From Synechococcus elongatus PCC 11801 (GTDB taxonomy: Bacteria > Cyanobacteriota > Cyanobacteriia > Synechococcales > Synechococcaceae): DNA of 33,025 nt. The stretch's first letter is position 1; every line of letters begins with the position of its first letter. The stretch lies in assembly GCF_003846445.2 (NCBI RefSeq), contig NZ_CP143528.1, positions 1 to 33,025 on the forward strand. The letters are read 5' to 3'. Shown one piece after another: positions 9,032 through 33,025 of the stretch. Position numbers and translations under genes: made by a program. The notes beneath the pieces are model-generated. The model saw nothing but the letters and a program-made list of their open reading frames with translations. It did not search any database and was not told where the DNA came from.

Positions 9032-9277
9032 TCAAGCAACAGGGCGAGCATTGCGGCGGGCATTTTGCAGCTTTTCCAGCGCTTCTAGCTCGCTCGTGAT
9101 CGCGTGGTCGTAGGTTTCTAAGAGTTCGTCAATGTGACTGAGGAGCGATTTGGGCTGCTCGGCTTGGATGCGGCGACGGATTGCTAAGAGTACAAAGAAC
9201 AGCTCAATATTGGAGGCGCTGAGGATCGACGCATCGATCTCGTTCAACCGCGCTCGGCTGATCGATACTGGAGACAT
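9032..9277 (-). CDS. Small helical protein of unknown function
   Basis: An 81-residue protein starting at the ATG at 9277, preceded by AAGGAAAAAAG. A longer frame to 9382 exists but runs into the neighbouring gene. It appears almost wholly alpha-helical (SRARLNEIDASILSASNIE, then a long charged helix to the C terminus), with no motif I recognise. It sits between the coiled-coil gene and the ArdC-like gene on the same strand, so it is probably co-transcribed and plasmid-related. Confidence 0.5.
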   Translation of the reverse strand: MSPVSISRARLNEIDASILSASNIELFFVLLAIRRRIQAEQPKSLLSHIDELLETYDHAITSELEALEKLQNARRNARPVA

Positions 9278-12308: not shown

Positions 12309-12605
12309 ATCACTGCGTGTCCTCCTCAATATTCTCAATTCCGGCAGAATCAAGGAATACAGCCTGTTCTGACGATTGATGGAGCAGTCAGCCTTGACCT
12401 CAATGATGGGGTCTGGGCTGAACTAGTGGGCGATCGCATTCGACTGACCATCGCGATCGCTGGGGTCACGATGGCTATGCCTCCTCCAGGCATTGGGGAT
12501 GGTGTCAGCAGATCGATAGAAAGGGATGGAGTGATGACAAACATCTTTGTTATTGATGACGAATTGACAAAGGAGTTATGCGGTTTTGCAGTTCTCAATG
12601 GATAA
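12309..12605 (+). pseudogene. Fragment of an RNase II/R-type (RNB-domain) gene
   Basis: After the HNH stop the same frame stays open to a TAA at 12603-12605. Its translation contains PVLTIDGAVSLDLNDGVWAE followed by RIRLTIAIAGV, which mirrors the RNB catalytic signature (usually IDxxxxxDLDDA...VAIADV). Key acidic positions are changed (Asn and Gly where Asp and Ala are expected), there is no start codon, and only about 85 codons remain. I read it as a decayed fragment. A second, more decayed copy lies at 18266-18342. Confidence 0.6.
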
Positions 12606-13530: not shown

Positions 13531-13940
13531 AAATCTGGTACCAGCATGGTTCGGAGCACTCAGCTAACCTCGTCATGATCGGGCGCTTCAAGGACGTAGC
13601 CGAGGCAACGAAGGCTAAGGAGATTATCGACGCGATCGCAAAGCAGGTTGATAAAGAGCTATCGGAAGGGACATTAACCCTGGGGGACCCACCAGCGCGC
13701 TATGGGGAAGAGATGCTCGAACTTCTAGGAAAGCTGAACGCGGTGACGCTCGGGACGAGTGAGCTCGAACAGTTTTCGTACGAGGTCAGCGTCAAATCCA
13801 AGGGAAGTGATCTTGTTGTCACTACCGAAGAGTACGATATCTCGGCATTCCTCAAGGTGATGCTTTTGCAAGGTGCGCGGATTGAGGTCTACTCTGCACA
13901 CGATCATCCCGACAGCGAGTACGGGAGGGGGCTCGGATGA
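13527..13940 (+). CDS. DUF6375-like small protein, partner of the radical SAM enzyme
   Basis: A 137-residue protein opening with MKIWYQHGSEHSANLVMIGR, a start I associate from memory with the DUF6375 family. It is predicted to be mixed alpha/beta with no enzyme motif. Its ATG overlaps the radical SAM stop, and its own stop lies 13 bases before the ATG of the large nuclease/NTPase, so the three genes form one tight operon. It could be an adaptor, a substrate carrier or the modified target. Family name is moderately confident; function unknown. Confidence 0.6.
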   Translation: MKIWYQHGSEHSANLVMIGRFKDVAEATKAKEIIDAIAKQVDKELSEGTLTLGDPPARYGEEMLELLGKLNAVTLGTSELEQFSYEVSVKSKGSDLVVTTEEYDISAFLKVMLLQGARIEVYSAHDHPDSEYGRGLG

Positions 13941-13953
13941 GCATAGAGCTGAG

Positions 13954-16900: not shown

Positions 16901-17949
16901 GCGGGGTTGTATGGACGCTCGGATGGAGAGCGGCTCGCTTTGACGCGCTAGATCGCCAGATTGCTGAAAGCGCCTATCACTATAGCCGTACAGATCGGTC
17001 ACGCGTAGAGCGGTATGGGAAGAAATACGGATGGACTGGATTCTTCACGTATGCCGGGCTCCTTGAGGAACAAGGGCTGTTGCCACATGGCAGCTCCTTC
17101 TCTGACGTCGATATTGATCCTTCATTCCCTGAACAATCACCTATCGATGGGACGCCCACATCTCCCGAGGTCTGGCTATCCCCATCCACCAAGAGCCACG
17201 AGCAATGGGTTCGAGAGAGCTCTACTTCCGTGCCTCATAACCTTCTCGTTCGGGAGAAGATTGGTGAGCATGATGGACCGTGGGTTGCTGTCTACGGATT
17301 TGTCTCGGCTGAGGACAGGGTACTCGGGCGCGGGGCATGGGCCTTCATCTCGGCGTTCGTGACCCCAAAACAGACATCGCAACAACTGGTAGATGCTCTG
17401 AAAGATGGTTTGCGGCCATGGGTAGCTAGCAACATTCCCAGCGACTACTACACATTCGCTGGCGAGATCCCTTGGCACCCACGCTTCGCCGCCGAAGTAC
17501 TTGCCGAATCTGGCCTGGAGCATGCATACCGAGAGACCATTCACGTTGGTACGCGCAACGTGGTGGTTGAGATCCTCTCGCATACCTACGAGTGGGAGAC
17601 CTACCACAATGAGATCAACCGAGCTGGCAGTGTGTACGTGCCGTCTCGGCATTTCTCAGCACGGTTTGACCTGCGGAGCATGCCGCAAGGATTTGATCAG
17701 TATCTGCCCAATGGCACAAAAGCGACCATTACGTTGAGTAGTGTCGATGGACTAAAAGGCAACGTACTGTATGTTCGGGAAGACCTGCTTCAGCAATACA
17801 TCGGTGACCGCACTGTAGTGTGGTTTTCATTCGGCGAGCGTGAGTTGCGACCCTATCCACCATCACCACCGCAATGGCTCGTGGATGCTCAGCAGAAACA
17901 AGAAAATGCGTGGACTGAGGTACTAACCGAGGCTGACTTTAGGCCCTAG
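13954..17949 (+). CDS. Large restriction-nuclease-like/P-loop NTPase protein (STAND- or Avs-like architecture)
   Basis: A 1331-residue protein from the ATG at 13954. Residues about 5-165 look like a PD-(D/E)xK nuclease: GVEFHLKL with Glu48 and WWGWQCKWYE with Gln70-x-Lys72, as in Mrr-type domains. A helical linker leads to a P-loop NTPase with Walker A LAPAGCGKT (327-335) and Walker B LPILIDGLNE (400-409). The remaining ~900 residues are long helical repeats and a C-terminal region, a plausible sensor. Nuclease, switch and large sensor in this order resemble Avs4-like phage sensors, though I see no proof of homology. GC content is normal and some HIP1 sites occur, so it may come from another cyanobacterium. 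A Lys-rich tail is encoded just past the stop in another frame. Confidence 0.7.
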   Translation: MPALNWDIFTCLPGSAEKNFELLCRGIVRQNFGSFGTFRSLANQPGVEFHLKLTQRCDALGEPGRWWGWQCKWYELTANGTLGANRRKTIEEGLRKTEKYLPELTDWVLWTRRTLTKDDQKWFNGLSSKMSLHLWTGDEVDNYLVGQATVLRGTYFGELVFTPSILCERHEQAVARIKKRWQPDVHHVGNTERELRRMLGEVEAWDTLLDLATELRANVEAVKSLPDVPTQLASCVAAVISTSSQLANTLDRAVQGIRVGDLDLLRDELNGRSRVLPAEVQTAPRKLRSGRQIAALYVTNLVAACHDAIRVLSEVETGFSSRLVAVLAPAGCGKTQLAAQLTASTTDRPHGVLLHGGDLHANHTLDDLARRVSIAAQPVPSMEALLAAIDAAGQRAQKRLPILIDGLNESEDPRRWKPLLAELEATLVKYPYVLLVCTLRPEFMDDVLLDGMHHLELGDYGEETIEAIHKHFRYWKIDAIDAALPDLLSHPLTLRLFCEVTNAPRQQVIGIGSMPGSLTSLFERYLEQASVRVAELASLTRRFYAQDVNAAIAAIADKLWESRARSIEIGELRNMLGDAQRPWDQSLVRALEQEGVLLRTPSNGSDVYVPVYDMFGGYIIAKALLAKHSRSSFETWINNSSTMALLAGSHTVRHPLAGDVLRSLVEQVPRRFDSKQVWQMVDEPLRSRALRCAAQLEPAFLDAETVDALIDLVRAGDPEILTRLWQIRGMQGHPLNADRLDQVLQSMPVADRDLRWTEWIRRNYDDPLGQGRSMLRDLESLKDRWRGGHIRPGDRLRARWVMWTLTSTVRRLRDQATCALYWFGRHNPEGLFALTIESLPVNDAYVGERMLAAAYGVVMSHQQADDGFAAHLGPFLQQLASALVGQSAIAPTQHYLARLYVRGIVAFAAKFYPSLLPTALSGKWIFASPPPVQSLVDGDAGAEEAGQTLHMDFKNYTLGKLFDERRNYDMSHTGHQAAVAHVCGVVWTLGWRAARFDALDRQIAESAYHYSRTDRSRVERYGKKYGWTGFFTYAGLLEEQGLLPHGSSFSDVDIDPSFPEQSPIDGTPTSPEVWLSPSTKSHEQWVRESSTSVPHNLLVREKIGEHDGPWVAVYGFVSAEDRVLGRGAWAFISAFVTPKQTSQQLVDALKDGLRPWVASNIPSDYYTFAGEIPWHPRFAAEVLAESGLEHAYRETIHVGTRNVVVEILSHTYEWETYHNEINRAGSVYVPSRHFSARFDLRSMPQGFDQYLPNGTKATITLSSVDGLKGNVLYVREDLLQQYIGDRTVVWFSFGERELRPYPPSPPQWLVDAQQKQENAWTEVLTEADFRP

Positions 17950-19484: not shown

Positions 19485-22478
19485 TTAGGACGCTTCTTTG
19501 AGGCGATTTAGGGTGTGATTTAGGGGATGGGCCTCTAGGATTTGCTGCTGGGGAGTGGAGAGCGGCTCGTTGTCGGCCACACCTACTAGAAGAAAGCTGG
19601 TTAGGGGGTGTGGTCTGAGCTGGAATCCTTCTTCGAGATACTGTTTCATCCTTGTCTGCAACAGGGTTTTAAGGCGTTTGAGGCTGGATAGCTCCAGCCG
19701 GTAGCGGCGAGTACGGTGCTGGTTCTCGTCCGTCTCGCGCCGCATCATGGTGCTGAGACCAAACTGCTTAAGCACCATGCCCACGATCGCCGTGGGTTCC
19801 ATCGTTTGGCGCACCGTCAAGTTGAGGCAGAGCTTCACTTCTCTTTGATGAGCAAGGCAGCGCTCTACGAACGCCGTGATTTCGGGCGTGTCTTTGGTCC
19901 AGCCCTCGTCTGATTTCGTCGCTTGGATCAGGAAAACCAGCAGCTCGCGTACCCCGAGGATGTCGGCCGCTTTGGTAAGTAGCTGCGCCGTGGGCAAGTC
20001 CTGAGCGGGGATGGGCTTCTCCCACTGAATCAGCTTGTCCAGCTTCTGCTTGTCCTTGTGCTGAGCCAGCCTGTCCCAGATCAGCAGCTCCACTGTCTTG
20101 ATGTAGTGGCGTTGACGGCCATTGGCATCGTTCACGATGTCCTCTAGGGTCAGCTTTTCAGGGGAAATGCCATAGAACTGGCAAAGGTCGTAACGACTGA
20201 GTTTGAGGCGATCGCTCAAGGTCAAAACCCGCTTTTGACGCAGAGCGATCGCAGTGTCGTCATCGATAGCTTCAGCACGGAGTTTCGCTATGTCAGCTGC
20301 CGCTTGGACTTGCTGCTGTGCGGTGTTCCACAGTTCGAGAGCGGGCTCTAAATCGGGCATTTCCATCGCATCTCCAGTGAAGACAGAATTTCCTGCCACT
20401 TCCAGTCGCAGTCGCAGAGACAGACCAAACTCCGCCATGGCTGCATTGCACTCGGCAGAACTGGCGGCATGGTAGCGAGCAGAAGGCGAGTGAAAGTCCA
20501 CCTGCTCCATCAGCGATCGCATACCGGAAAAAGAGGCGAACAGCTCCGTCCGGCGGTACAAGTCGGCCTGATAGGTCAGGGCATTTTGAGCTGCTGAAAT
20601 GCTCTGACTCTTGCCATGAGAAACAGCAAAGACAATGCGCGGTACGGGCTGGCGGACTCGGGACAAAGCCTGATCCACATCCCAAGGGGCAATCGATTGA
20701 CCTTCAAAGAAGCCAAAGACGCAATCGAAGTAGTCGATCTCGATGGACACGCCGGAAGTGAGCGAGGGACTGGCGATGATGATCTGGGGCTGGTACCTCT
20801 CAATCCACGGATGCGGTGAATCAGCAAACTGCCGCTGATCTGGATCGCTGGAGGTTTCGCCGTCGTAGCGCAGGATCCTTTTCGCCGGAACGCCAAGAGC
20901 GATCGCTAGCTGATAGAGGGCTTTGCTGGCTTTGAGCGTATCGACTGCAATCCAGAGGCGATCGCCGCGATGAATTGCTTCAATCAATTGGAGTAGCGCT
21001 GCCGCTCGCGCCCGCTTGCGGGATCCTTTCTGTTGGGGAATATCCGAGAGGAACTGGCAGCAATAACCGTCCTCGCGATAGTCGTTCTGAAGAATCCAAG
21101 GTTGCTCATTGCGGAGTGAGGCAACGTAATCCAGCTCCAGTGTTGTGAGGTCAGCGCTGGCGAGCAAGACCCGTCGCGCACCGCGAATCAGGGTTTCAGC
21201 ACGGTCAATCAGAGCAGGACGCATCCCGCGCTTGCCGCAAGTTGCGCCATTGATCAGGTGCCGGAAGCCTTGGTCAGCTTCATCAATCACTAGTTCATAC
21301 GACCCTATGGGGTAGTCCTTGGGCGCGATCGCCAACAGGGAATCCCAGCACAAGCTAAGGCGATAGGTGGGTTCACCGTTGTTGCCGAGCTTTCTTCCTT
21401 CAGCCCGATCCGTGTCGTGCAGATAGTCCAAGCCCAGTCTGCGACCCAATCCTCGCTGCAAACTCTCGCGGTGGCCTGGAGCAAGAACGCGCTTTAAGCC
21501 ATCAACCAGCTTGGTGAGCAGTTTGGTTTTGCCCGTACCTTTGCCTGACAGCAGCGCCACAATGCCGGTTTCGGGAATTGCGTCGAGGGCGATCGCTTGC
21601 GATAAGTCCGGTTCAGAAACCTGAAGTGAGGGCTGATACTTGCCCAGTGGAAAGCGCAGCCGCTGGAAGATTGCCCCTTCAATCCGTCGCCGCTGCCAGT
21701 CTTCAAACGAGGGAGCCGCCGCCAGAATCTGATGCCAGCGTTCAGCTCCATGAGCAGCAATCAGATCATCGATACCCTTGCCGAGCGCTGGATCCCATTG
21801 AGCAATGCGGACTGAGCAGCCGAGATCAATGGCTCGTCGCGCCAATCGCGCAATGCCACGACCGACTCTGGCTCGGGTGGTGGCCTTCTCATCTTGGTCG
21901 AAGGCAATGAAGACTTGCCGCCCTGGAACCAGGAAACGAGTCAGGTCTGGACTGTTGCCGCAATCGCAACCATACAGGGCGATCGCTACTGAACCCGCAG
22001 ACAGACCAGAGAGTCCCTTTTTGCCGCCTTCTGTGATGACCAGTGGCACTTCTGGATGGGCTGCAATCCAGTCCCAGAACAAGCCTTGGACGTATTCGCC
22101 AATCAGCTCACGCTGGGTCTTCTCATCGATAGGCGGCAGATAAGCGCGGTTGCCTACGCCCTTGGGAGCCAAGTAAGAGCCGGTTCGCTTGCCAGACTCT
22201 CCGCCAAAAACCTTGAGCTGCCAAACCTCGTTTGATTCCTGTACAAAAATCGCAGCGGTCTGGCTACTGCGAGCTTGCTGGCCAAATCGAGTGAAGTGCC
22301 AACCCAAGGCATCCGCGATCGGGGTGCCGATGACCTCATGGGTCAGTGGATCAATCTCGATATCTGCCACAACAGCGATCGCCTGCTGGAACAGGCCAAA
22401 AGCGATCGCGCTGGACTGGCAGAACTCTTGCTGGATCTGAGTTTGAAGGTTGCCAGATACAGGAATAGAGAAGACCAT
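19485..22478 (-). CDS. cyrepA1: Plasmid replication protein, CyRepA1 family (DUF3854 primase-like plus helicase-like)
   Basis: A 997-residue protein matching the layout of cyanobacterial CyRepA1 initiators. Residues about 120-245 form a TOPRIM-like DUF3854 domain (VPLVITEGGKKGL, QVFIAFDQDEKA, GKGIDDLIAAHG). The centre is a P-loop helicase-like part with Walker A LLSGKGTGKTKLL (about 310-322), a DEAD-like box YELVIDEADQG and later helicase segments such as QIIIASPSLTSGVSIE. The C-terminal 350 residues are helical. It should prime and unwind DNA at the plasmid origin. GAGGAGG sits seven bases before the ATG, one of the strongest Shine-Dalgarno sites here. The 670-base gap upstream is the natural place to look for the origin. 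Confidence 0.82.
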   Translation of the reverse strand: MVFSIPVSGNLQTQIQQEFCQSSAIAFGLFQQAIAVVADIEIDPLTHEVIGTPIADALGWHFTRFGQQARSSQTAAIFVQESNEVWQLKVFGGESGKRTGSYLAPKGVGNRAYLPPIDEKTQRELIGEYVQGLFWDWIAAHPEVPLVITEGGKKGLSGLSAGSVAIALYGCDCGNSPDLTRFLVPGRQVFIAFDQDEKATTRARVGRGIARLARRAIDLGCSVRIAQWDPALGKGIDDLIAAHGAERWHQILAAAPSFEDWQRRRIEGAIFQRLRFPLGKYQPSLQVSEPDLSQAIALDAIPETGIVALLSGKGTGKTKLLTKLVDGLKRVLAPGHRESLQRGLGRRLGLDYLHDTDRAEGRKLGNNGEPTYRLSLCWDSLLAIAPKDYPIGSYELVIDEADQGFRHLINGATCGKRGMRPALIDRAETLIRGARRVLLASADLTTLELDYVASLRNEQPWILQNDYREDGYCCQFLSDIPQQKGSRKRARAAALLQLIEAIHRGDRLWIAVDTLKASKALYQLAIALGVPAKRILRYDGETSSDPDQRQFADSPHPWIERYQPQIIIASPSLTSGVSIEIDYFDCVFGFFEGQSIAPWDVDQALSRVRQPVPRIVFAVSHGKSQSISAAQNALTYQADLYRRTELFASFSGMRSLMEQVDFHSPSARYHAASSAECNAAMAEFGLSLRLRLEVAGNSVFTGDAMEMPDLEPALELWNTAQQQVQAAADIAKLRAEAIDDDTAIALRQKRVLTLSDRLKLSRYDLCQFYGISPEKLTLEDIVNDANGRQRHYIKTVELLIWDRLAQHKDKQKLDKLIQWEKPIPAQDLPTAQLLTKAADILGVRELLVFLIQATKSDEGWTKDTPEITAFVERCLAHQREVKLCLNLTVRQTMEPTAIVGMVLKQFGLSTMMRRETDENQHRTRRYRLELSSLKRLKTLLQTRMKQYLEEGFQLRPHPLTSFLLVGVADNEPLSTPQQQILEAHPLNHTLNRLKEAS

Positions 22479-23145
22479 CAGCGGCCTCCTCGGACGAAAA
22501 GATACATAATTTCCTCACACCTGCCGGTGTTAAAACACAAGGATCTGTGGCGCGAGGTGGTAGCATCGGGATTAAGAAATTTTCCCCCGAGGCTAGGACA
22601 CACCCGGCCTGGAGCCCTGAGCGCCAACTCGGGGCTTCGAACTTTTTAGGGGTCTGGGGTCTGCCATCGCCAAACAGCAGTCCAAAAACCTGACTCAGTT
22701 CAATGAATTGTGGTCAGTGCACGCCCAAGGCTAGAAGGCGTAGTCAGGGCACTGAGAGGATTGGGTAGATAGACGCTAAGCAGCTCCTTGACAGCGAGGG
22801 TTGCTGGATAGTATCGCCTGAACTGAGCAGTTTGGCGAACTGTGGCAAGTGCAGAGGAAGTTATGAGAAGTTTATCGACTGGTTAAAGTTATGAGCACTA
22901 CGTTTAGATTCCCTTTAAATTTTGGCTGATTTATGGTGTAGACAAAGCTAGATTGTTTCACAGGCTACAAGTCTTAAAACCCTTACGTAGACTCAATTTT
23001 ACAAATCATTCTCATCAGTAAAATCTTTGTCCAATTGTGGGGTGTGGCCATAGATAGTGCTTGCTTTGTTCTTGATGGCGGTTACTGCTCATTTACCAAG
23101 CCTGTTAGTGAAATAGTCTGTATGGGAACGCTGGAGGCTGTCTTG
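22479..23145. other. Gap upstream of rep with two iteron-like repeats; candidate origin
   Basis: No gene fits here. Two imperfect 31-32-base copies, 22690-22721 and 22823-22853, share 23 of 32 columns, including CAGTT, the core GAAYTGTGG and AGTGCA. A 5-bp inverted repeat ACACC-tgcc-GGTGT (22517-22530) lies just before the rep ribosome binding site and could be an operator. The last 200 bases are AT-rich, as expected of an unwinding region. Placing the origin here is inference from position, repeats and AT-richness. Confidence 0.4.
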
Positions 23146-23776: not shown

Positions 23777-24085
23777 ATGACTTTATCTGTGCTGTCATTG
23801 TTGATTGCGATCGCTTTATTAGTAGGTACCTTCTTCTGGATTAAATACAGTCAAACCAAAGGGCGATCGCGGAGATATCGCCCACCAGTGCGTCGCCCTG
23901 TTGCTCATCAACCACAGGGGGTGAGCAGCCAGACGAAGAAAGAGCTACGGCGCTTAGTTAATGGCAATCAAGATTTAGCAGAACGCCTCGTCAAGCAGGT
24001 ACGGCTACACAATCCTGATCGGAGTGACCAGTGGTGCTGGGAGAAAGCTGTCCATGACATTCAGCGCGATCGACGCAGTTCCTAA
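23777..24085 (+). CDS. Small membrane-anchored basic protein
   Basis: A 102-residue protein from the ATG at 23777; a TTG three codons earlier is an alternative start. One N-terminal transmembrane helix (about 3-23, LSVLSLLIAIALLVGTFFWI) is followed by a very basic stretch (RSRRYRPPVRRP). A small helical domain ends it, with LRRLVNGNQDLAERL and NPDRSDQWCWEKAVHDI. It lies between the two copies of the 56-base repeat, so it may have been inserted or duplicated with that segment. Function unknown. Confidence 0.55.
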   Translation: MTLSVLSLLIAIALLVGTFFWIKYSQTKGRSRRYRPPVRRPVAHQPQGVSSQTKKELRRLVNGNQDLAERLVKQVRLHNPDRSDQWCWEKAVHDIQRDRRSS

Positions 24086-24121
24086 CTCGCTCAGCGCTGG
24101 CAGTGATTAGGTTTAAGCGAT

Positions 24122-24177
24122 CGCGGGATACAGAGGTGGTGAAAAGAGCTGTGAAGTTGTTGGCGATCGTGCAGAGG
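24122..24177 (+). repeat. Direct repeat, copy B (remnant of the HEAT gene 3' end)
   Basis: Second copy of 23666-23721. The stop codon TAG has become CAG, so the copy has no complete gene attached and is a leftover of duplication or recombination. Confidence 0.75.
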
Positions 24178-24186
24178 TAATTTTTC

Positions 24187-24810
24187 ATGAGTTTGATAAA
24201 TCTAATTCAATTTATTGGAAGTGGAACAGTTTTCTTGGCTATTTCGGGTTGGTTTATTAGATCAATAACTCTTCATTTTCTTTCAAGAGATATTGAAAAA
24301 TATAAGTTTGATTTAAAAAGAGAAAATGACAGAGAAATCGAGCATTATAAAGCTCTTTTAAATGCTGAAAATTCAAAAGAGCAGATCAAATTTTCTAAGC
24401 TTCAAGAACGAAGGTCTTTAATAATAGAAAAAACTTACAAAAAAATTATTGATCTAGAAAGTTCAGAGGCATATCTTACTAGTCTGATTAGTGAAGTAAA
24501 AGAAGATGTAGAAGAGTACGCAGATTTAAAAAGAGCCTCAGACGAGTTCATTGATAGTTTTTTGGGACTTAATTCCTTTTTAATGAAGAATGCAATCTAC
24601 TTTCCTAAGAATATCTCTAATAAAATAGAAACTTTCAGCACCTCAACATTCTATCTTTCCATAGATATTTTTTATCACTCAGATTCTAATAATGTGAAAG
24701 ATTTCATTGATTTGTTTCAAGCAAAAAGAAAATACTTTAATGGCAAAAATACAGAAATAAAAAGTTTTATCGAGTCAGAATTTCGACGTCTACTTGGTGC
24801 AGCTGAATAA
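24187..24810 (+). CDS. Membrane-anchored coiled-coil protein of unknown function
   Basis: A 207-residue, lysine/glutamate-rich protein with GAGGTAA upstream of its ATG. One transmembrane helix (about 7-30) is followed by a long charged coiled coil (about 34-85) and a helical C-terminal domain. The DNA is strongly AT-rich with no HIP1 sites, unlike the operons on both sides, which marks it as a recent acquisition. Proteins of this look are common in accessory and defence islands, but I recognise no family. It converges on the five-gene operon, 30 bases away. Confidence 0.55.
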   Translation: MSLINLIQFIGSGTVFLAISGWFIRSITLHFLSRDIEKYKFDLKRENDREIEHYKALLNAENSKEQIKFSKLQERRSLIIEKTYKKIIDLESSEAYLTSLISEVKEDVEEYADLKRASDEFIDSFLGLNSFLMKNAIYFPKNISNKIETFSTSTFYLSIDIFYHSDSNNVKDFIDLFQAKRKYFNGKNTEIKSFIESEFRRLLGAAE

Positions 24811-24840
24811 AGAATAAGGAATTACAGTAATCACCTGAGA

Positions 24841-25614
24841 CTAAGGCGTCATAACAATTTGCAAGGCAACCTCTACCTTCACTTGCCCACCAACTTGCTC
24901 TAGCCACCGCACCCGTCTCACCCGTCCGGAGTAGGGTGCTTTGACCACCAAAGCATCGAGCTGCGCTTGCACTGAGTTCAGTTCCATCTGTCGTTGCTGG
25001 GCTTGCCACTGATTGAGCTTGTTTTGGCGTTGTGCTTGAGCGATCGCATTTTGGAGTCGCTGCTCTGTGGCTTTGAGTTGCTGCTGAGCGACTTGGACTT
25101 GCAGGGCTTGTTGATCACGAGCGATCGCCGCAAGGTCTGCTTCTCGTTGGGGGCGAAGTCCCTGCTCAGCAAAGGATTGCGCTCGCTCTGCATCGGCTTG
25201 AGCTGTCGTCAGACGCGACTGAGCTTGTAGCAGTGAGAGCTGAGCTTGTTCCCGAGCAGCAGCAGCTTCTTGAGGCTGAGAGCTAGGCAAAGCTGGCGGT
25301 TGGGATAACTCAAACTGCAACTGAGCGAGTCGAGTTTGGAGAGTAGCTCGTCCAGGGCGTAGAGCGATCGCTTGCCCTGCTTGGAGGCGATCGCCTTCGA
25401 CGATTTGCAAGTCTTCGGGCTTTTCCACATCGAACTTGAGCTTGAGTTGTCGGGGTTGATTGGATTTTCCAGAGTCGGTTTCTGCTTCGGGTTCAGTAGC
25501 AGTGGTTGCTTCAACTGGGGCAATGGGCTGAGGACTGGGCGCTTCAGCGGTGGCAGAAGAGCAGGCAGCGATCGCCAGCATCAGGAGCAAGAGAACGAGG
25601 GCTTGCTGGATCAT
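24841..25614 (-). CDS. HlyD-like periplasmic adaptor, lipoprotein
   Basis: Starts at the ATG at 25614, overlapping the stop of the upstream ATPase gene (ATGA), and has 257 residues. The N terminus is a lipoprotein signal peptide with lipobox AIAAC and Cys18 as the acylated residue. After an acidic Pro/Ala linker come a half-lipoyl-like piece (VEGDRLQAGQAIALRPG, 72-89), a long alpha-helical hairpin (about 92-222), and the returning half VKAPYSGRVRRV (224-235). That is the membrane-fusion-protein layout, bridging inner and outer membranes. No classical ABC or RND transporter is encoded beside it, and it is the last gene of a five-gene operon with a HerA/VirD4-like ATPase. Confidence 0.7.
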   Translation of the reverse strand: MIQQALVLLLLMLAIAACSSATAEAPSPQPIAPVEATTATEPEAETDSGKSNQPRQLKLKFDVEKPEDLQIVEGDRLQAGQAIALRPGRATLQTRLAQLQFELSQPPALPSSQPQEAAAAREQAQLSLLQAQSRLTTAQADAERAQSFAEQGLRPQREADLAAIARDQQALQVQVAQQQLKATEQRLQNAIAQAQRQNKLNQWQAQQRQMELNSVQAQLDALVVKAPYSGRVRRVRWLEQVGGQVKVEVALQIVMTP

Positions 25615-26720
25615 GATTCGGCTCCTTGGCGCTGCCAGTAGGGATGGATTTGGACATGGCGCAGCTGCACCCCAAAGCGGCAAATGGCTTCGAGGGGCTG
25701 AAGCTTGGCAAGCCGGTCTTCACTAAGCCGGAAGCGTCGGGCAACCGTTCTCACCTCGGTTTGATCGACAGGCAGGACAACCTTCGTCGCGCTGTTGCGC
25801 AGAACTTCAGCTGACAAGTGCTGCTCCGACTGACTCGCGAGGACGATCGCCAGACCGTACTTGCGGCCATCCATAAGCACACGGTCTAAGACAGAACTGC
25901 CTCTGAGTTCTTTCGCTTCATCAATGAAGAGAACCGTCTTAACCTGATCCGCCTCGCCATTGAGCCGGTGGTTGCTAAGCTCTTGAGCCACAAACGATTC
26001 CGCTGCCAGCGCCGCAATCTCGGGCGGGAGCTTACATAAATCCAGTCGGAGTAAAGGTTGATTCGATTCCGACTGGGGACGGGAGAAGACGCCATAGCGG
26101 AACAGCGCCGCCAGTTTGAGTTGCAGTCGCTTGGCTTCGGCCAGACCCGATTCCGCTTGCATGGCTAGAAAGCGCTCAAGGTCTGCAAAGGTGGGTGGCT
26201 CAAAACGCCACGTTTCCTCAGCCGTGGTGATGCCGCGATGCCGATAGCACTGGTCGAACAGGTTGAGCAGCAAGCCCTCTTGATTCGGACCGAGCTTGAG
26301 CAAGCGGCGAAGACTAGCCGCGACAGCGATCGCTTGCAGACCCGGACCACCACCTTCAGGATCGGGATGCACCGTCAGTGGCGCGATACCCCACGGACTG
26401 CACTGATGTAGCGGAATGACGGTTTCCTCGGGTAGGGACTGGTCGCCGTGGAAATCAAGAACACGGACTCTGAGATCCGGCTGCTGTTGATGAAGACTAT
26501 GGGCGATCGCCTTGAGGGTCTGAGTTTTGCCAGAACCCGAGGCACCCAGAATCACAGCATGGGCATTGGTCAGGGCTTCAGGTTGCCAGTGGCAATGGCC
26601 ACCGAGCCAGACTTGTAGACCACTTACTTCAGCAGCAGAGTCAGCCTCTGTTTCTGCTGAGTGAACAGGCGATCGCTGTTCAGGGAGTGGAATGACAGCA
26701 GGGGGAAAGCGATCGGTCAT
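25611..26720 (-). CDS. HerA/VirD4/TraG-like DNA-pumping ATPase
   Basis: A 369-residue P-loop ATPase. Walker A is GASGSGKT (59-66), preceded by AHAVILG. VRVLDFHGDQ follows at 85-94, Walker B is VLFIDEA (263-269), and LASQSEQ (294-300) is the sensor-like motif typical of VirD4, TraG and HerA ATPases. There is no transmembrane helix. Such ATPases move DNA through pores in conjugation or process DNA ends. Its ATG overlaps the stop of the membrane protein upstream by four bases, with GGAG eight bases before it. Placement between a membrane hydrolase-like protein and an HlyD-like adaptor is unusual for a known conjugation system. Confidence 0.72.
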   Translation of the reverse strand: MTDRFPPAVIPLPEQRSPVHSAETEADSAAEVSGLQVWLGGHCHWQPEALTNAHAVILGASGSGKTQTLKAIAHSLHQQQPDLRVRVLDFHGDQSLPEETVIPLHQCSPWGIAPLTVHPDPEGGGPGLQAIAVAASLRRLLKLGPNQEGLLLNLFDQCYRHRGITTAEETWRFEPPTFADLERFLAMQAESGLAEAKRLQLKLAALFRYGVFSRPQSESNQPLLRLDLCKLPPEIAALAAESFVAQELSNHRLNGEADQVKTVLFIDEAKELRGSSVLDRVLMDGRKYGLAIVLASQSEQHLSAEVLRNSATKVVLPVDQTEVRTVARRFRLSEDRLAKLQPLEAICRFGVQLRHVQIHPYWQRQGAES

Positions 26721-27766
26721 GGTCGAACTCCAGAGGAGGGAATGAGGCGACGGGCAACAAGACGGCCTCGGGCAGGGCTATCACCCAGCAGGGGAAGGAT
26801 CTGGTCGGGCGGAGCCGATTGGAGATGAGCAAGGAAACGGCCATTGCCCATGCCTTGCAACCTCAGCGGCTCAAAGTGAAAAGGATCAGGAATGCGCTCT
26901 GGTTCCTCATCGAGTTCCAGTACCCCTGAGAGATAGGCATCCTTGGGGATGGGTGGATCCACTTCATTGAGAGTGGTGTCATCGAACTCCAGCGTTCGCA
27001 ACTCAACTTGGATTGGCTGAACCCGCTCAACTCGTAATCGCCAAACCTGTAGCTGAGCTTCTTGGCTTTGGCCAGCGCGATAGAGCCAGCCTTCTTCGTC
27101 TTGGAGCAGGACATCAAGCTGAGTGATAGCGGCGAGAACACGGTAAACCTTGCCTGTAATCGGTTGTTGGGTCAGCCGTTCCACACCCCACGCTTCTGCT
27201 TGCAGTTCCCAGCGATCGCCCTCGCTCAAGACCAACTCAACAGCACTAGATGGCATGCCCATCCAGCCCTCAATCGAGCGCATCAAGCCGCCACCGCTGT
27301 TCATGAATAGAGAGAAAGCCAGAGTGAAGGCCAAGACCGAAACCAACAGATATTCGATACGGCTGCCTGTACTGAGCCTGAGTCTGGGATTGCCTGGAAT
27401 CACTAACCTTGCCTGATACGGCCAGAAGGCAGCTACGCCCGTCTTGGTGAAGCAATCAGCGAACCAGCCGAAGCTGTAGCCCAAGACAATCGCGCCCCAG
27501 ATTTGCAGGGAAACAAAGATTACTGGCGAGAACAACAGGGCGATCGCTGCTGTCGCCACAAGGCTGTGAGTCAGCGTCCGATGCGGCCAGTGGCGTTCAA
27601 TGCGGCGACTAATGGGAAACAAGAGCCGCCCCATCCACGAGTGGGAGGTGTCTGCGTCTGGGAGTTGACCAGCGATCGCTCCCACCCCAATCAGCAGCGG
27701 TGAAGCTGTGCCGAGACACAAAGCCACGCCGCAGGCACTAGCAAGGCTATGGGTGAGTGCCATCAT
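26717..27766 (-). CDS. YdjM/DUF457-type membrane protein (putative metal-dependent hydrolase) with a C-terminal extension
   Basis: From ATG 27766, overlapping the upstream stop (ATGA), 349 residues; a second ATG follows at once. The first 160 residues match the YdjM family: MALTHSL with His6, GAIAGQLPDAD (Asp37/Asp39), then HWPHRTLTHSL with His59, His62 and His67, interspersed with three or four hydrophobic segments. The remaining ~190 residues form a soluble beta-rich extension that I do not recognise and that is not usual for the family. The metal-ligand pattern suggests a phospholipase-like or other hydrolase at the inner membrane. Its coupling to ATPases on both sides points to a role in one membrane complex. 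Confidence 0.65.
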   Translation of the reverse strand: MMALTHSLASACGVALCLGTASPLLIGVGAIAGQLPDADTSHSWMGRLLFPISRRIERHWPHRTLTHSLVATAAIALLFSPVIFVSLQIWGAIVLGYSFGWFADCFTKTGVAAFWPYQARLVIPGNPRLRLSTGSRIEYLLVSVLAFTLAFSLFMNSGGGLMRSIEGWMGMPSSAVELVLSEGDRWELQAEAWGVERLTQQPITGKVYRVLAAITQLDVLLQDEEGWLYRAGQSQEAQLQVWRLRVERVQPIQVELRTLEFDDTTLNEVDPPIPKDAYLSGVLELDEEPERIPDPFHFEPLRLQGMGNGRFLAHLQSAPPDQILPLLGDSPARGRLVARRLIPSSGVRP

Positions 27767-28677
27767 CGGCCTAACCTCTGGCTGCCCCGAGGCAAGCGCC
27801 CGACCAAGAACCGCGCCATCAGTGCCACCACGGTCAAGATGCCGCCAATGACATAGAGGCTGCGATTGCCATAGCCGAGGCCGATGTATCTGAGAACGAT
27901 CAGGCTCGCCAACCCACAGACCACGATGGGAGTGCCATCGATCCACTGACGGTGATCCGGTGCCGTTTCATCCAGACCCAGAAAGGCTTCTCTGACAACT
28001 CGCCCCGCCAGCAGGGGATTACCACCACAGCGAGCTTGCAGAGCGGAAAGATCAGCAGCACTCAACTCCAAGCCCAGTTGCTCTGCTTCGGCTTGCATCA
28101 ACTCGCGAATCTGACCATCGCGCAGTGGCTCCAGCTCCAATCGCGGCAATTTGAGAAAGAGATCCTTAGCTGGTGGATTCGTCGCCAACAGGAGCATTGG
28201 CACACTCAAAGGAAGCAACTGTTCCAGCCAAAGGCGGAACGCTGCGGGGCAGCGCTGGACTTGATCAATCACCAGAAAGACCGGCTCTGGCCAGTTCTCT
28301 AGTTCCTCACGCAGAGTCTCAGCAAAGAGCGCAACCGTCTGGCGCTGCTCCGGTTCAATCTCTAGTTGCTCCGCCACTTGGATCAGCAACTGGCGCTGAG
28401 TCAACGGCTGGGGCAGGGTCACAACCGTGTAGCCAACTGAGCGCAGCTCCTCAACCACGGCGCGACTGAGACGACTCTTGCCGCTGCCCGCTTCACCCAC
28501 AACCAGCAAGCTTTCCGCAGCCCGAAGACTAGCGATGATCCGCTGCTTTTCTCGTTGGCGATAGCGGAAAGCATCCAGCGACGGAATGGAGCTGCGATTC
28601 CCGTCCTCATCGACGAGGTAGTGATACTCCTTCTGCTCACCACTGGCGAGCTGTCTTCGGTGGCGCTCAATCCACAT
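27763..28677 (-). CDS. ExeA/TniB-like AAA ATPase with two C-terminal membrane helices
   Basis: Starts at ATG 28677 in a TGATG overlap with the preceding gene; 304 residues. Walker A is GEAGSGKS (61-68), Walker B is PVFLVIDQVQ (132-141), and a sensor-like strand MLLLATNPPA lies at 161-170. This is the small AAA+ type seen in ExeA and TniB. The C terminus carries two transmembrane helices (about 250-267 and 273-292), so the ATPase is anchored to the membrane, as in the GspA/ExeA assembly ATPases. It should energise assembly or movement at the envelope together with the downstream gene products. Confidence 0.7.
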   Translation of the reverse strand: MWIERHRRQLASGEQKEYHYLVDEDGNRSSIPSLDAFRYRQREKQRIIASLRAAESLLVVGEAGSGKSRLSRAVVEELRSVGYTVVTLPQPLTQRQLLIQVAEQLEIEPEQRQTVALFAETLREELENWPEPVFLVIDQVQRCPAAFRLWLEQLLPLSVPMLLLATNPPAKDLFLKLPRLELEPLRDGQIRELMQAEAEQLGLELSAADLSALQARCGGNPLLAGRVVREAFLGLDETAPDHRQWIDGTPIVVCGLASLIVLRYIGLGYGNRSLYVIGGILTVVALMARFLVGRLPRGSQRLGR

Positions 28678-29696
28678 CAGGCCACCTTCTTGAGTTGTTT
28701 CCAAGCCGCGATGAAACGCCGACTACAACGCTGCCCGCTCTGGGTTTCCACCCAAGTCATCAGCTGGGAATAGGACTGTAAGCCCCGCGCCGTCGCTTCG
28801 TCGAGCAAGCGATAGACCTCACGTGTTCTGGGACTGAGATCGTGGGGATAGTCAGCAAACACTCGAATAGAGTCTGCATTCCCGACCGTTCCCTGAGTCA
28901 TTGAAGTTGGGAACGGCGATCGTTCCGTGGTCTTTGTTGTCGGGAACGATTCAGGAGTTTGTAATGGCTTGTGCAACTCCCATGGCGGTGGTGGCAGAGG
29001 TCGAGGAGACTGGGAACGTGCCTCTGCTTCTGTTGGGAACGGTTGAGGGAACGGGGTGATTTCAGCTTGGGAACGCTCCGCAGAATCCACCGCAACAGGT
29101 ACGACCTCCAGCAGTGCTTCCGATGTTTCAGACAAGTCAACCGCGATCGGGAACGCCTCAGGAACGATTGCAAGTTGGGATTGGGAACGAGCATGGGAAC
29201 GGGGTGCCTCAGCCGCTGTTTCAGAAGCTGCCAAAGGCCGTTCCCCCGAAAAATCACTGGGGGAAGTTGGAGAACTGTGTGTCTCTATAAGAGGCCACCT
29301 TGAAACGGACGGTTTAGCGCCATCAGACTGGCCATCACAGTCAGAGACAGGAAAGAGCCGCGATCGCCCCTGAGCAGGGCTGGGGGAAGCCGGAGTTGCT
29401 GTTTCAGTTGGGAACTGCGCGGGGCTTTGAGTGAAGGGAACGGCCTCGGGTGCTGGTGCTGTTGGGGTCGCGATCGCTGTAGGAAGAGAAGTACGTTCCC
29501 GCTCAGTCTTGGATCGTTCCCGACCGTGGTTTGGATTGGGAACGGTCAAGCCCGTGGACAGAGGGAACGCCGACCAGACGGGGGAGAGTTCCCCGACGAG
29601 TGAGGAGGTCAGGAACGGTTCCGTTCCCGATAGGAACTGGCCGATCTGTTGAGCCGTTCCCTTGAACCAGCTGACTGTTTTTTGCAACCGTTCCAT
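28677..29696 (-). CDS. Pro/Ser/Thr-rich protein with a conserved C-terminal domain, first gene of the five-gene operon
   Basis: A 339-residue protein with three parts: a short amphipathic N terminus (MERLQKTVSWFKG...), a disordered Pro/Ser/Thr/Glu-rich middle (about 35-270), and a folded C-terminal domain (about 275-339; DLSPRTREVYRLLDEATARG, then TWVETQSGQRCSRRFIAAWK). The last part could be a winged-helix-like DNA-binding domain. The middle is shaped by 18 copies of the heptamer CGTTCCC/GGGAACG, read in both orientations and all three frames (Val-Pro, Phe-Pro, Arg-Ser and so on), so the DNA motif rather than the peptide seems to be kept. The stop overlaps the next ATG (TGATG). The ribosome binding site GGGGAAC is itself part of a near-copy of the motif. 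Confidence 0.6.
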   Translation of the reverse strand: MERLQKTVSWFKGTAQQIGQFLSGTEPFLTSSLVGELSPVWSAFPLSTGLTVPNPNHGRERSKTERERTSLPTAIATPTAPAPEAVPFTQSPAQFPTETATPASPSPAQGRSRLFPVSDCDGQSDGAKPSVSRWPLIETHSSPTSPSDFSGERPLAASETAAEAPRSHARSQSQLAIVPEAFPIAVDLSETSEALLEVVPVAVDSAERSQAEITPFPQPFPTEAEARSQSPRPLPPPPWELHKPLQTPESFPTTKTTERSPFPTSMTQGTVGNADSIRVFADYPHDLSPRTREVYRLLDEATARGLQSYSQLMTWVETQSGQRCSRRFIAAWKQLKKVA

Positions 29697-30469
29697 CAGC
29701 GTTGTTCCCCAATGCTGCTTTCATTTGTAAGAGCATTCCCACCAAATCAGGGAAGCCATGATCTGGCCACACCCCTGTGAGAACGACAGAGAACGGTCTT
29801 TAAACGATTGGGAACGATTTTAGATTCCTATACAAAAAGCTGAGGGAACGCCCCCAAGCACTAGCAATTAATATAAGCGTTCCCAAATTTAGAAATAGCC
29901 CGAGGGAACGGCTGCCGTTCCCAGAAAGAATCCCATCGTTCCCTCACCATTATCCTTGGGAAATCTAACTAAAACTTGCCCGCTAAGAAGCCGTTCCGTG
30001 ATGCTTAAGTGATGGCGATCGCGGGCGGGGAGTCACAATCGTTCCCGACAGTGAAAGATCAGCAGGGAACGAAGCAGCAGATATCCCAACAGCAAGCTTG
30101 CGTCCCCACCGGTGATCGTTCCCACCGTTGGAACGGTTTTAATCAGACCGTTCCCGACAGCATTCCCTTGATAATTTAGCCACCGTTTCCAGAGAAAAAG
30201 AATTCTACTCTACACCGTTCCCTCTACAGTCAATCAATAGCTAGCCAGTCTAAAAGCAATTGCATAAGTAATCAGAAACTAGCGAGCTAAAGATTGGGAA
30301 TGCTACGGATGATCGCGTGGGAACGGGTTGGGAACGCCTGCTTTTGTAGGACTGGGAACGGTCATTGAGAAGCACTGATTCCCCCCGACTGCGATCGCTG
30401 AAAGCGGCTCTAGGAGCGAGGCTGTTCCAGAAAGTCTTTAGATTCTGACCTGCTTTTTAGTGCGTTCCC
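28887..30469. repeat. Array of 33 GGGAACG/CGTTCCC heptamers
   Basis: I count 33 exact copies (19 as GGGAACG, 14 as CGTTCCC on the plus strand), about one per 48 bases, plus many one-off variants. Elsewhere in the plasmid I noticed only about three scattered copies. Common longer forms are TTGGGAACG and CGTTCCCGAC. The array covers most of the first operon gene and the whole gene-free region 29697-30507 upstream of it. Spacing is irregular, so it is not a tandem repeat or CRISPR. It has the look of clustered protein-binding sites: a centromere, origin or transfer site, or a chromatin-like zone. Confidence 0.9.
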
Positions 30470-30507
30470 GACCCTCACTGAAGCAAAGGAATGAAGGAGT
30501 TCAGCCC

Positions 30508-30780
30508 ATGACTACGGATCAACTGTTTACGATCGCGACCCAACTAGGACCGGAGGAACTACGGGAACTGGTACTGAGCTTGCAAGGATTATTAGAAGTG
30601 CAAGGTCATCCGCTTGAGAATCAGGAGAAGTCACAAGGCTCGATTGAACTGAAGATGATCAACGGCTGCGGACCCTATGCCTATCTGCGCTACTACAAGG
30701 GACAGAAGAACGGTAAGAAGTCTTATGGCTCTCGCTATTTGGGCAAAGGAGCTACGCAGATAGCCAGTGAGCAAAGTTAG
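30508..30780 (+). CDS. Small DUF6788-like protein
   Basis: A 90-residue protein starting at ATG 30508 with AAGGAG eight bases upstream. The N-terminal half is helical (TDQLFTIATQLGPEELRELV). The C-terminal half holds SIELKMINGCGPYAYLRYY and GSRYLGKG, reminiscent of the DUF6788 type of small proteins with a GPYxYLR..YLGK pattern. Function unknown. It directly abuts the heptamer array and may be transcribed out of it. Confidence 0.6.
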   Translation: MTTDQLFTIATQLGPEELRELVLSLQGLLEVQGHPLENQEKSQGSIELKMINGCGPYAYLRYYKGQKNGKKSYGSRYLGKGATQIASEQS

Positions 30781-30845
30781 GGAATCCCTGACTCCCTAAG
30801 TAAGATTTCTTGGGTCTTAAACTAAGGTTTCGCAGAGGAAATAGT

Positions 30846-31316
30846 ATGAAGGTCTGGCTCGGGGTATTGCTGCTGGCGTTGGTCGTGCCTGCTCCGGCGA
30901 TCGCCCAAACGGTCACACGGGTCAGTGATGGCGATACGATCCGTGTCTTGCTTAACGGGAAAGAGGAACGAGTTCGCCTCGCCTGTATTGATGCCCCAGA
31001 GATGCGGCAGACCCCATTTGGCGTTGCCAGTCGCGATCGCTTGCGGCAACTCACGCCAGTCGGTTCAACCGTCAGGCTGCGGACTTTGACCCGCGATCGC
31101 TATGGGCGAATTGTGGCGGAGGTGTTTCACCAAGGCAAGAACGTGAACCTGCAGCTAGTCAGAGAAGGACAGGCAGTGGTGTACCGGCAGTATCTACAAG
31201 GCTGCGATCGCAATGCTTACCTACCTGCGGAGTTGGAAGCGAAGCAGAGGCGATCGGGCTTTTGGCAGCAGGAGGAGCCGATGATGCCGTGGGACTTTAG
31301 GAGAGCAGGAAGTTGA
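30846..31316 (+). CDS. Secreted thermonuclease (SNase-like)
   Basis: A 156-residue nuclease with an N-terminal signal peptide (MKVWLGVLLLALVVPAPAIA, cleavage likely after residue 20). The SNase fold is clear: VSDGDTIRVLLNG (25-37), VRLACIDAPE (43-52) with Arg44 and Asp50, RDRYGRIVAEVF (92-103) and VREGQAVVYRQY. It hydrolyses DNA and RNA with Ca2+ in the periplasm or outside the cell. GAGG precedes the ATG. Plasmid-borne SNases are often linked to conjugation or nucleotide salvage; here it follows the DUF6788-like gene after 65 bases and may share its transcript. Confidence 0.85.
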   Translation: MKVWLGVLLLALVVPAPAIAQTVTRVSDGDTIRVLLNGKEERVRLACIDAPEMRQTPFGVASRDRLRQLTPVGSTVRLRTLTRDRYGRIVAEVFHQGKNVNLQLVREGQAVVYRQYLQGCDRNAYLPAELEAKQRRSGFWQQEEPMMPWDFRRAGS

Positions 31317-31390
31317 GTGTCACAGGGAGCTTGTTCAGTCCTACTGGCGGCTTAGTGTGTGTTTTGCCATTTTCACAGGCGACCCTGCTG

Positions 31391-31443
31391 GCTCTCAGCT
31401 TAAACCGCGGCAGCTCCTTGAAGGCTCAGGTTGAGCTGAGAGC
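31391..31443. promoter_or_regulatory. Inverted repeat upstream of abiEi, candidate AbiEi operator (or terminator)
   Basis: Arms GCTCTCAGCT (31391-31400) and AGCTGAGAGC (31434-31443) match perfectly, and AACC/GGTT just inside extends them; the loop is about 22 bases. It lies 54 bases before abiEi. AbiEi antitoxins repress their own operon by binding inverted repeats in the promoter, so this fits an operator. No U-run follows, which argues against a simple terminator of the nuclease gene. Confidence 0.5.
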
Positions 31444-31496
31444 TATTCAACGGCATAAGAGACTGCCCTCTCTTCATTTACGTTCAATTTTTGCTA

Positions 31497-32615
31497 ATGT
31501 TCAATAAAAATGAACAGTCAAAAATTTTGAACAAACGAGCTCACATGGTGGCTGCTGAAGTTGATATACAGCTGGCTCTATCTCGATTCAGCTCTCAAAC
31601 AGGTATCCCTGCTCATCTGGAGCCAAGTTATGAGACGGAAAAAAATGATTGCTTCTGGTCTGAGGGAATTGTGAGTCTCCATTCCCGCGCTGGATTAAGT
31701 CATTGGCAAGTGGTAGCTCGTCCAATTAAGAACGCAGCTGAAATCGCTGCGATCGCCAACATAAAAGACTTTAGCGATCGATCTCTCTTGCTGATTACTT
31801 CTCAACTCAGTCCAGGGCTTGCCCAGACTTGCCGCACTCTCGATCAAGCCTTTATCGATACTGCTGGCAACGCCTTCATCCAGAAAGGGAATCTGCTAAT
31901 TTTCATTAGCGGACAGCGGGCACGATCGACGAAAACTACTGCTTTTACTGGTAAATCGCTTACCCCTGTCGGACTAAAAGTTCTATTTCTCCTACTAAGC
32001 TATCCCGAGTTTATTTCTGCTCCCTTCCGAGTAATTGCCCGAGCCTCTGGAGTTTCTCTTGGTAGCGTAGCCGCCACGATTGCTGATCTAGAAAAACGTG
32101 GCTACTTAATAGCCTCTAAGAGAGGCCGTCCATTAATCCTGCAACATCAAGCCCAACTACTCGAGGAATGGTTACTGGAATATCCCTTGCGGCTACGTCC
32201 AAAGCTGACCTGCTGGCGATTCGCGATAGCACCCGAAACATGGCGATCCATTCAGCCTGCCGATTATGGTGGACTCTGGGGAGGAGAGCCAGCAGCAGCC
32301 CTGCTGAGACAATCTCTTAGACCTGAGCAACTAACCCTATATCTTGATCCAGTAACTGCTGCGAAAAGTGTGACACAGCTTGTCAGAGACTATAGGCTAC
32401 GTCATGATCCTGCAGGAAAACTTGAAGTATTTGCTGCTTTCTGGTCTTTTGCGGAATTACCCTCTTTGATGAAGCAATGTGTTCCTCTTCCTATCGTGAT
32501 TGCTGATCTTCAAGCTAGTCTCGATCCGCGCAACTTGGAGATTGCTCAAGATCTCAAAATTTGGTGGTCTCACTATCCAGAAAATTTTAGCTATAGAGTC
32601 ATCAATACTCTCTAA
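31497..32615 (+). CDS. abiEi: AbiEi-family antitoxin (type IV toxin-antitoxin)
   Basis: A 372-residue protein. A winged helix lies at about 156-212 (TPVGLKVLFLLLSYPEF, VIARASGVSLGSVAATIADL, then the wing KRGRPLILQ). The C-terminal domain ends with VIADLQASLDPRNLEIAQ, the hallmark ADL...DPRN..IA block of AbiEi proteins. The protein represses the operon through DNA binding and separately counters the toxin without a stable complex. It is followed after 61 bases by the AbiEii-type toxin. The start is taken as ATG 31497 without a clear Shine-Dalgarno; ATG 31545 would be 16 codons shorter. The DNA is moderately AT-rich. Confidence 0.8.
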   Translation: MFNKNEQSKILNKRAHMVAAEVDIQLALSRFSSQTGIPAHLEPSYETEKNDCFWSEGIVSLHSRAGLSHWQVVARPIKNAAEIAAIANIKDFSDRSLLLITSQLSPGLAQTCRTLDQAFIDTAGNAFIQKGNLLIFISGQRARSTKTTAFTGKSLTPVGLKVLFLLLSYPEFISAPFRVIARASGVSLGSVAATIADLEKRGYLIASKRGRPLILQHQAQLLEEWLLEYPLRLRPKLTCWRFAIAPETWRSIQPADYGGLWGGEPAAALLRQSLRPEQLTLYLDPVTAAKSVTQLVRDYRLRHDPAGKLEVFAAFWSFAELPSLMKQCVPLPIVIADLQASLDPRNLEIAQDLKIWWSHYPENFSYRVINTL

Positions 32616-32676
32616 ACTCTAAACCAAAATACATAAAATCCAAAACCTGTTTAGGCTTTCAATCACAACCTCCAGA

Positions 32677-33025
32677 ATGCAACACCGTATATTCCAAGTC
32701 CAATCCCCGATCCATCCTGAACTGGCCAACATTCTTCGAACAATTCAAACAGCATCTCGCGATCTGAATATTGATCTTTTTTTGATTGGTGCAACTGCTC
32801 GTGATCTTTGGTTGGTTTACATCTTTGGCCTATCCAGATCTCGCTTAACTCGTGATGTTGACTTTGCAGTCGCTCTACCAACGTGGGAAAGTTTCTTTGA
32901 GTTAAAGAATTCTCTTATCTCTAACTATGGATTTACTGCAGACTCTAACCCTCGACGTCACCATCGCTTATCGCTACAAGCTCAGATTTATAACACTATT
33001 GATATAATCCCCTTCGGAGAATTAC
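32677..33025 (+). CDS. abiEii: AbiEii-type nucleotidyltransferase toxin, N-terminal part (continues at 1..536)
   Basis: The first 116 codons of the 294-residue toxin, from ATG 32677. The nucleotidyltransferase core is visible: LIGATARDLW (36-45), where the G-A-T stands for the usual GGT, and LTRDVDFAV (57-65) with metal-binding Asp60 and Asp62, followed by IDIIPFGEL at the cut. The chain continues in frame at base 1. Pairing with AbiEi supports the assignment. Confidence 0.85.
   Translation, partial: MQHRIFQVQSPIHPELANILRTIQTASRDLNIDLFLIGATARDLWLVYIFGLSRSRLTRDVDFAVALPTWESFFELKNSLISNYGFTADSNPRRHHRLSLQAQIYNTIDIIPFGEL

Follow-up and report, generated by a model that had tools for sequence, protein, structure and literature searches.

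Two DNA movers that work without a relaxase, TraB of Streptomyces with its clt repeats and TdtA of Thermus, are known (PMC5365140) and provide the comparison for a locus on a plasmid of Synechococcus elongatus PCC 11801. The window analysed, 33,025 nucleotides long, is this plasmid in full, and the locus consists of five overlapping minus-strand genes at 24,841-29,696, here called A to E, together with an array of CGTTCCC sites that covers gene A and the DNA upstream of it. We propose that operon and array could form a plasmid-specific DNA machine spanning the envelope, with transfer as its most likely task, a reading that we hold to be about evenly balanced. The architecture of the system appears to be new, and no description of the operon was found among the open-licence papers searched.

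The resemblance to Streptomyces TraB (PMC5365140) lies in a plasmid-borne pump ATPase combined with short plasmid sites and no relaxase, and the dense short repeats beside the transfer gene that mark the TraB-clt system have a counterpart in the CGTTCCC array. TraB differs in being a single FtsK-type protein whose own C-terminal domain recognises clt and which requires no parts for a diderm envelope. Protein D, the pump of the present locus, has no such recognition domain and matches HerA/DndH better than FtsK; recognition is instead assigned to the separate protein A, and the HerA/DndH-type pump is accompanied by B, C, E and a TolC-like protein, F, encoded after E in most relatives. Thermus TdtA, encoded on the mobile element ICETh1, is a HerA/FtsK ATPase used for DNA donation without a type IV secretion system (T4SS; PMC5365140), and D shares the HerA/FtsK pump core with Walker A and B motifs. 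TdtA differs in its length (~570 amino acids), in belonging to the HAS-barrel FtsK-HerA group and in having a NurA-like nuclease encoded in its operon. D has only 58 residues before the P-loop, neither a HAS-barrel nor a NurA match was obtained with Pfam for D or the operon, and no NurA is named in the neighbourhoods of annotated relatives. The account of TdtA mentions no array, YdjM or HlyD/TolC-like parts (PMC5365140).

By sequence, the proteins nearest to D are DndH/DptH and Mad8, which differ in serving phosphorothioation-linked and methylation-associated defence, and beyond the P-loop similarity no Dnd or Mad companions occur in the operon. Conjugative T4SSs share with the locus the plan of an envelope-spanning DNA machine with a coupling-type ATPase. 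A preliminary description of the operon had held that it is not a standard conjugation system, in agreement with Pfam scans of the larger open reading frames (ORFs) of the complete plasmid, which gave no relaxase, VirB4, pilin or mating-pair-formation (MPF) gene; moreover, D has neither the N-terminal transmembrane (TM) helices nor the all-alpha domain of T4SS coupling proteins. With HlyD/TolC tripartite secretion the locus shares E, which is like a periplasmic adaptor, and F, which is like the OEP/TolC repeat, but it has a DNA pump in place of an ABC, RND or MFS energy module, and the operon contains no ABC transporter membrane component of the kind used in type I secretion. ParR-parC, TubR-tubC, StbA-stbDR and KfrA all pair a DNA-binding protein with iteron-like sites beside its own operon. 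They differ from the present system, which has no actin, tubulin or ParA motor in its operon, in which the sites run through coding sequence over 1.5 kb and to which envelope genes are attached.

Operon layout and encoded proteins

The plasmid is complete and of S. elongatus type, and its circularity follows from the AbiEii reading frame, which continues across both contig ends. The five-gene overlapping operon that had been claimed is borne out by the gene coordinates and by overlaps of one base between A and B (TGATG) and of four bases each (ATGA) between B and C, C and D, and D and E.

Gene A: 29,696-28,677, minus strand, 339 amino acids
Gene B: 28,677-27,763, minus strand, 304 amino acids, AAA_22 ATPase
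Gene C: 27,766-26,717, minus strand, 349 amino acids, YdjM-family membrane protein
Gene D: 26,720-25,611, minus strand, 369 amino acids, HerA/DndH-type pump ATPase
Gene E: 25,614-24,841, minus strand, 257 amino acids, HlyD-like lipoprotein
Site array: 28,887-30,470, both orientations, ~32 CGTTCCC (39 CGTTCC), across gene A and ~0.8 kb upstream

The start of gene C is placed at the ATGA overlap, which is found in relatives, making a longer form from a GTG (27,946) unlikely. Since the gene order recurs on other S. elongatus plasmids and across cyanobacteria, the arrangement is not a product of chance.

By its sequence D is a short, single-domain pump ATPase of the HerA/FtsK superfamily (HerA/DndH type). 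It falls within the Pfam HerA/DUF87/TrwB-core families, its Walker A (GASGSGKT, K65) and Walker B (LFIDEAKE) motifs are conserved in 14 aligned homologues, and the protein ends shortly after the ATPase core. The best matches were Mad8 (1.6e-20) and DndH (9e-20) in PADLOC and the DptH ATPase domain in the PDB (1.6e-10; 1e-20 with a profile). Of the earlier label "HerA/VirD4-like" only the first half stands, VirD4 being ruled out by the better DndH/Mad8 match and the absence of a TM segment. A match to TrwB (1.5e-10) is confined to the P-loop core, with its best stretch at 257-304, those to VirB4 are of superfamily level and far under the cut-off, and no other MPF match was found. Scans with D gave one distant match, from Acidobacteria, among genome contigs and one weak match among viral contigs, and structure predictions accordingly used single sequences. 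D also has a longer sister family (DUF5710/DUF87 type), found on proteobacterial plasmids and in some cyanobacteria (loci L079, L080, L081, L022 and L023), in both cases without the other operon genes.

The domain assignments proposed earlier for three further proteins hold in Pfam, NCBIfam and TM prediction: an AAA ATPase with membrane anchors, a YdjM-like membrane hydrolase and, more tentatively, an HlyD-like lipoprotein. B matches AAA_22 (1.7e-13) and has two C-terminal TM helices, at 251-269 and 274-292. C matches YdjM (PF04307, 1.4e-20), with three predicted TM helices, an extra C-terminal domain and five residues (H6, D37, D39, H62 and H67) that are invariant in the alignment. E carries a lipoprotein signal peptide with a lipobox and a lipoyl motif split around a coiled coil; it matches the HlyD/DevB/EmrA models of NCBIfam at 1e-5 to 7e-5, below their curated cut-offs, and the membrane fusion protein (MFP) ZneB in a PDB profile search (E=0.17), is modelled with low confidence as strand-helical hairpin-strand, and shows homology to the longer E proteins found in cyanobacteria elsewhere. 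F reaches the Pfam OEP cut-off. PDB profile searches returned nothing useful for C and nothing for F, and no TM helices are predicted in A or D.

The CGTTCCC array and gene A

The best support for DNA as the substrate comes from the array. CGTTCCC occurs 36 times on the plasmid, and 32 of these copies lie within 28,887-30,354, a stretch of ~1.5 kb (p about 1e-37), in both orientations and across both gene A and the non-coding DNA upstream. Nowhere else in the 2.8-Mb genome are there close pairs, direct or facing and no more than 30 bases apart. A periodicity of 11.5-12 bp marks the spacing of the sites in this plasmid and in pIITB6_2, UTEX 3055 and pIITB6_1 (p<0.0005 vs random spacings), four arrays that are mutually related and hence do not amount to four independent tests; the period was not seen in pIITB8_1. 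When gene A was aligned with that of UTEX 3055 under protein guidance, four-fold degenerate third positions were identical at 22 of 23 (96%) within sites, compared with 51 of 98 (52%) outside them, a contrast that indicates selection on the DNA of the array itself. The other aligned pairs gave the same contrast, and the sites fall in more than one frame of A. An origin of the array as a by-product of repeated protein was ruled out, because the sites use several frames, run into non-coding DNA and keep their silent positions. It is not an HIP1 repeat either, HIP1 being dispersed over the whole plasmid. The preliminary description had missed the array, which strengthens its suggestion of a machine acting on plasmid DNA; its "possibly DNA-binding" for gene A proved an understatement, as the gene sits inside a dense array of sites.

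Comparison of related plasmids indicated what the array belongs to. ParA and ParB of pANL (PCC 7942) are 92% and 91% identical to those of this plasmid, yet pANL has only 4 CGTTCCC in 46 kb; in the corresponding neighbourhood only pieces of the 3' end of E are left, so that the operon is lost, and pANL is still a plasmid. Conversely, pIITB6_2 has unrelated ParAB (32% and 37% identity) but the same array and an A that is 78% identical. These two plasmids rule out the array as the centromere of ParAB, and because the array does not track ParAB in either, it goes with the operon and gene A. In pIITB8_1, where A is only 35% identical and the motif is CGTTCCGG, B to E remain 75-94% identical, indicating a joint change of A and its sites that left the envelope part as it was. 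Synechocystis (both copies of pSYSX, pSYLC and three other loci) has a different type of A and 11-13 YGGACAA sites upstream of B. Taken together, sequence comparison suggests that A and its array may constitute an exchangeable specificity module.

Replication iterons are a disfavoured identity for the array, on grounds that are indirect for this plasmid: pANL replicates with neither array nor operon, and the minimal replicons of pSYSX, at 27,879-32,722 and 82,597-87,154, lie away from its array (PMC10899382). Other cyanobacterial plasmids carry smaller clusters (TACTGCA, GGTTCAA, GTTACCA) beside ParA/ParB genes (L013:1357-2480, L014:2607-3753, L017:306-1409 and L011:1801-2826), which are probably the centromeres of those plasmids.

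A is the probable array-binding protein. It consists of a low-complexity linker and a C-terminal three-helix domain of ~50 amino acids (Adom, ~28,680-28,844), and had no match in Pfam, NCBIfam, PHROG or PADLOC. AlphaFold2 folded the last 75 amino acids into three helices (pLDDT ~90 over the core), for which Foldseek returned no significant match, many of the weak ones being DNA-binding helix-turn-helix folds. In relatives, Adom is found as a protein of its own, encoded ahead of B or between D and E, or else as an N-terminal extension of E. The fusion, present in five loci and with a TM segment predicted between Adom and the HlyD-like part in four of them, joins the putative DNA-binding domain directly to the trans-envelope adaptor. 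Among S. elongatus plasmids A has a higher dN/dS (0.35-0.51) than B to E (0.03-0.14), for which dS is about 0.4-1.4 and the low ratios indicate strong purifying selection. The protein in the A position of Synechocystis is related to its Nostoc counterpart (5e-20), with no homology to the S. elongatus type detected, and in two Nostocales plasmids this position is taken by a KfrA_N DNA-binding protein.

Distribution, proposed function and alternatives

The gene set was found on plasmids of S. elongatus UTEX 3055, IITB6 (two plasmids) and IITB8 and of Gloeocapsa, Stanieria, Microcystis, Nostoc, Fischerella, Tolypothrix, Cylindrospermopsis, Anabaena and Synechocystis, with protein identities of 30-50% among cyanobacterial relatives. 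D occurs in 29 of 388 genomes of the class, in some on chromosomes; of 26 loci drawn from these genomes, 22 keep B, C, D and E side by side, and no locus lacks E; the genes run B-C-D-E, often followed by F. Frequent separation of the genes was thus not seen, and no library's profile matches place the set in a known secretion or conjugation family, in support of the earlier idea of a co-translated, fixed set of envelope-spanning design.

Partial copies of the set were also observed. The host chromosome (C1, ~292,480-293,500, locus L072) holds a full-length E gene and a 3'-terminal piece of D (91% identity over amino acids 300-369), a relic of plasmid integration. On several S. elongatus plasmids extra copies of the 3' end of E lie downstream of the operon, often near toxin-antitoxin genes (L006:10328-10573, L008:10544-10810, L009:14543-14836 and, in pANL (L084), 21562-21876 and 22332-22622), so that the end of E may be a boundary for recombination or cargo insertion. 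In two genomes (G119, L077:8005-9112; G100, C12:13605-14661) D occurs a second time, its frame split or interrupted by stops, and these copies are decaying duplicates of the operon.

The machine might work as follows. A would bind the CGTTCCC array and thereby mark this plasmid and only this one, and array-bound A would dock at an inner-membrane complex of B and C. D, which we infer to be a hexamer that moves DNA, would then engage the docked plasmid and pump its DNA toward a periplasmic conduit, with E as the base and with F, in most relatives, or perhaps a host outer-membrane TolC, here, completing it. DNA would leave the cell, the outcome being relaxase-independent export or transfer of the plasmid, for which we see roughly an even chance. 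The targeting of DNA is well supported, as both the array and the superfamily of D point to DNA as the substrate. That DNA is sent out and not merely held is suggested by the adaptor and TolC-like genes, by the lack of need for a second partition system, by pANL, which lost the operon and stays a plasmid, and by strain IITB6, in which two plasmids of one cell each keep their own set, as expected of a selfish plasmid function. More tentatively, and somewhat short of evenly balanced, operon and array may represent a new class of DNA-transfer machine, in which a HerA-type pump is combined with an HlyD/TolC-like conduit, and an exchangeable A with its own array of 7-8-bp sites, with no relaxase or T4SS.

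If true, this proposal could explain how many cyanobacterial plasmids at present classed as immobile have spread, a question that would become testable in the model strains S. elongatus UTEX 3055 and Synechocystis 6803 (pSYSX): 88% of the cyanobacterial plasmids surveyed are held immobile under current models (PMC8600333), and the cyanobacterial relatives examined are listed in PLSDB as "non-mobilizable". It would also mean that a DNA pump can be combined with envelope parts of the efflux type, and would offer an exchangeable plasmid-address system for cyanobacterial genetics.

Several points weigh against export or transfer. No transfer of these plasmids is documented, the binding of A to the array is a prediction, and the relationship of E to HlyD is based on low-scoring profile matches and a structure model of low confidence. 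F is absent from the 2.8-Mb genome, leaving the outer-membrane exit here without an assigned gene. Clear arrays were seen only in S. elongatus and Synechocystis, a scan of the 1.8 kb upstream of B in other lineages having given weak signals only, which is the chief weakness of the case, and the flanks examined of chromosomal operons contain no rep, par or integrase gene.

The main rival, which we consider unlikely, is that A and the array form a centromere and that B to E serve to anchor the plasmid at the envelope or to set its position there, with no DNA leaving the cell. Phased, iteron-like and plasmid-specific arrays upstream of the operon do resemble centromeres of the parC, tubC and stb types. 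However, the plasmid already has ParAB, and pANL, with ParAB 91-92% identical, lost both operon and array; Synechocystis minimal replicons likewise lack the region (PMC10899382). A tether, moreover, needs no HlyD-like lipoprotein adaptor, TolC-like partner or DNA pump. Even so, such a tether would represent a novel means of attaching a plasmid to the envelope of a diderm cell.

Export of a protein or small molecule, with the array as a large autoregulatory operator for A, is improbable. E and F resemble parts of type I or tripartite efflux systems, but the operon has no ABC, RND or MFS transporter, its ATPase belongs to a DNA-pump superfamily, no conserved cargo gene accompanies it, and 30-50 phased sites over 1.5-1.8 kb go far beyond an operator. 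Slightly less probable still is defence or entry exclusion against phages or incoming plasmids, which the nearness of D to Mad8 and DndH and the Thoeris and AbiE genes of the plasmid might suggest; the operon has no Mad or Dnd partner, nuclease or sensor, an array directed at the plasmid itself is not known as a feature of such systems, and the envelope adaptor would be left unexplained. Import of array-bearing plasmid DNA into the cell is very improbable, for although D also matches the profiles of the archaeal DNA-import proteins CedB and CedD, the genes lie on the plasmid itself, so that import would mainly help cells already holding it, no competence proteins accompany them, and the direction of a HerA pump is not readable from sequence.

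Neighbouring genes

Two genes near the array are linked to the operon by association only:

Small divergent ORF at the far end of the array: 30,460-30,780, plus strand, no Pfam match
Secreted staphylococcal-nuclease homologue: 30,810-31,316, plus strand, PF00565 (1.2e-20)

A small "hypothetical" coding sequence holds the place of the divergent ORF in the S. elongatus relatives (loci L006, L008, L009 and L082), and a "thermonuclease" gene adjoins the operon in the same four loci and in several Nostoc, Tolypothrix and Synechocystis plasmids. No Rfam match was found within 24,000-31,500.

Elsewhere on the plasmid, an ArdC-type anti-restriction gene (8,071-9,063; ArdcN and MPTase-PolyVal domains) agrees, circumstantially, with a plasmid that reaches new hosts in the form of naked DNA; the annotations of two related plasmids, pIITB6_2 and pIITB8_1, also include zincin-like proteins. 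A Thoeris defence pair (ThsA with a macro domain, ThsB with TIR) occupies a low-GC stretch at 627-2041, and an AbiEi/AbiEii type IV toxin-antitoxin pair lies at 31,491-32,615 and across the contig ends to 536. Finally, a radical SAM protein, a DUF6375 protein and a 1,358-residue STAND-like NTPase with weak HEAT-repeat similarity are encoded in a row at 12,586-17,949, a possible defence cluster.

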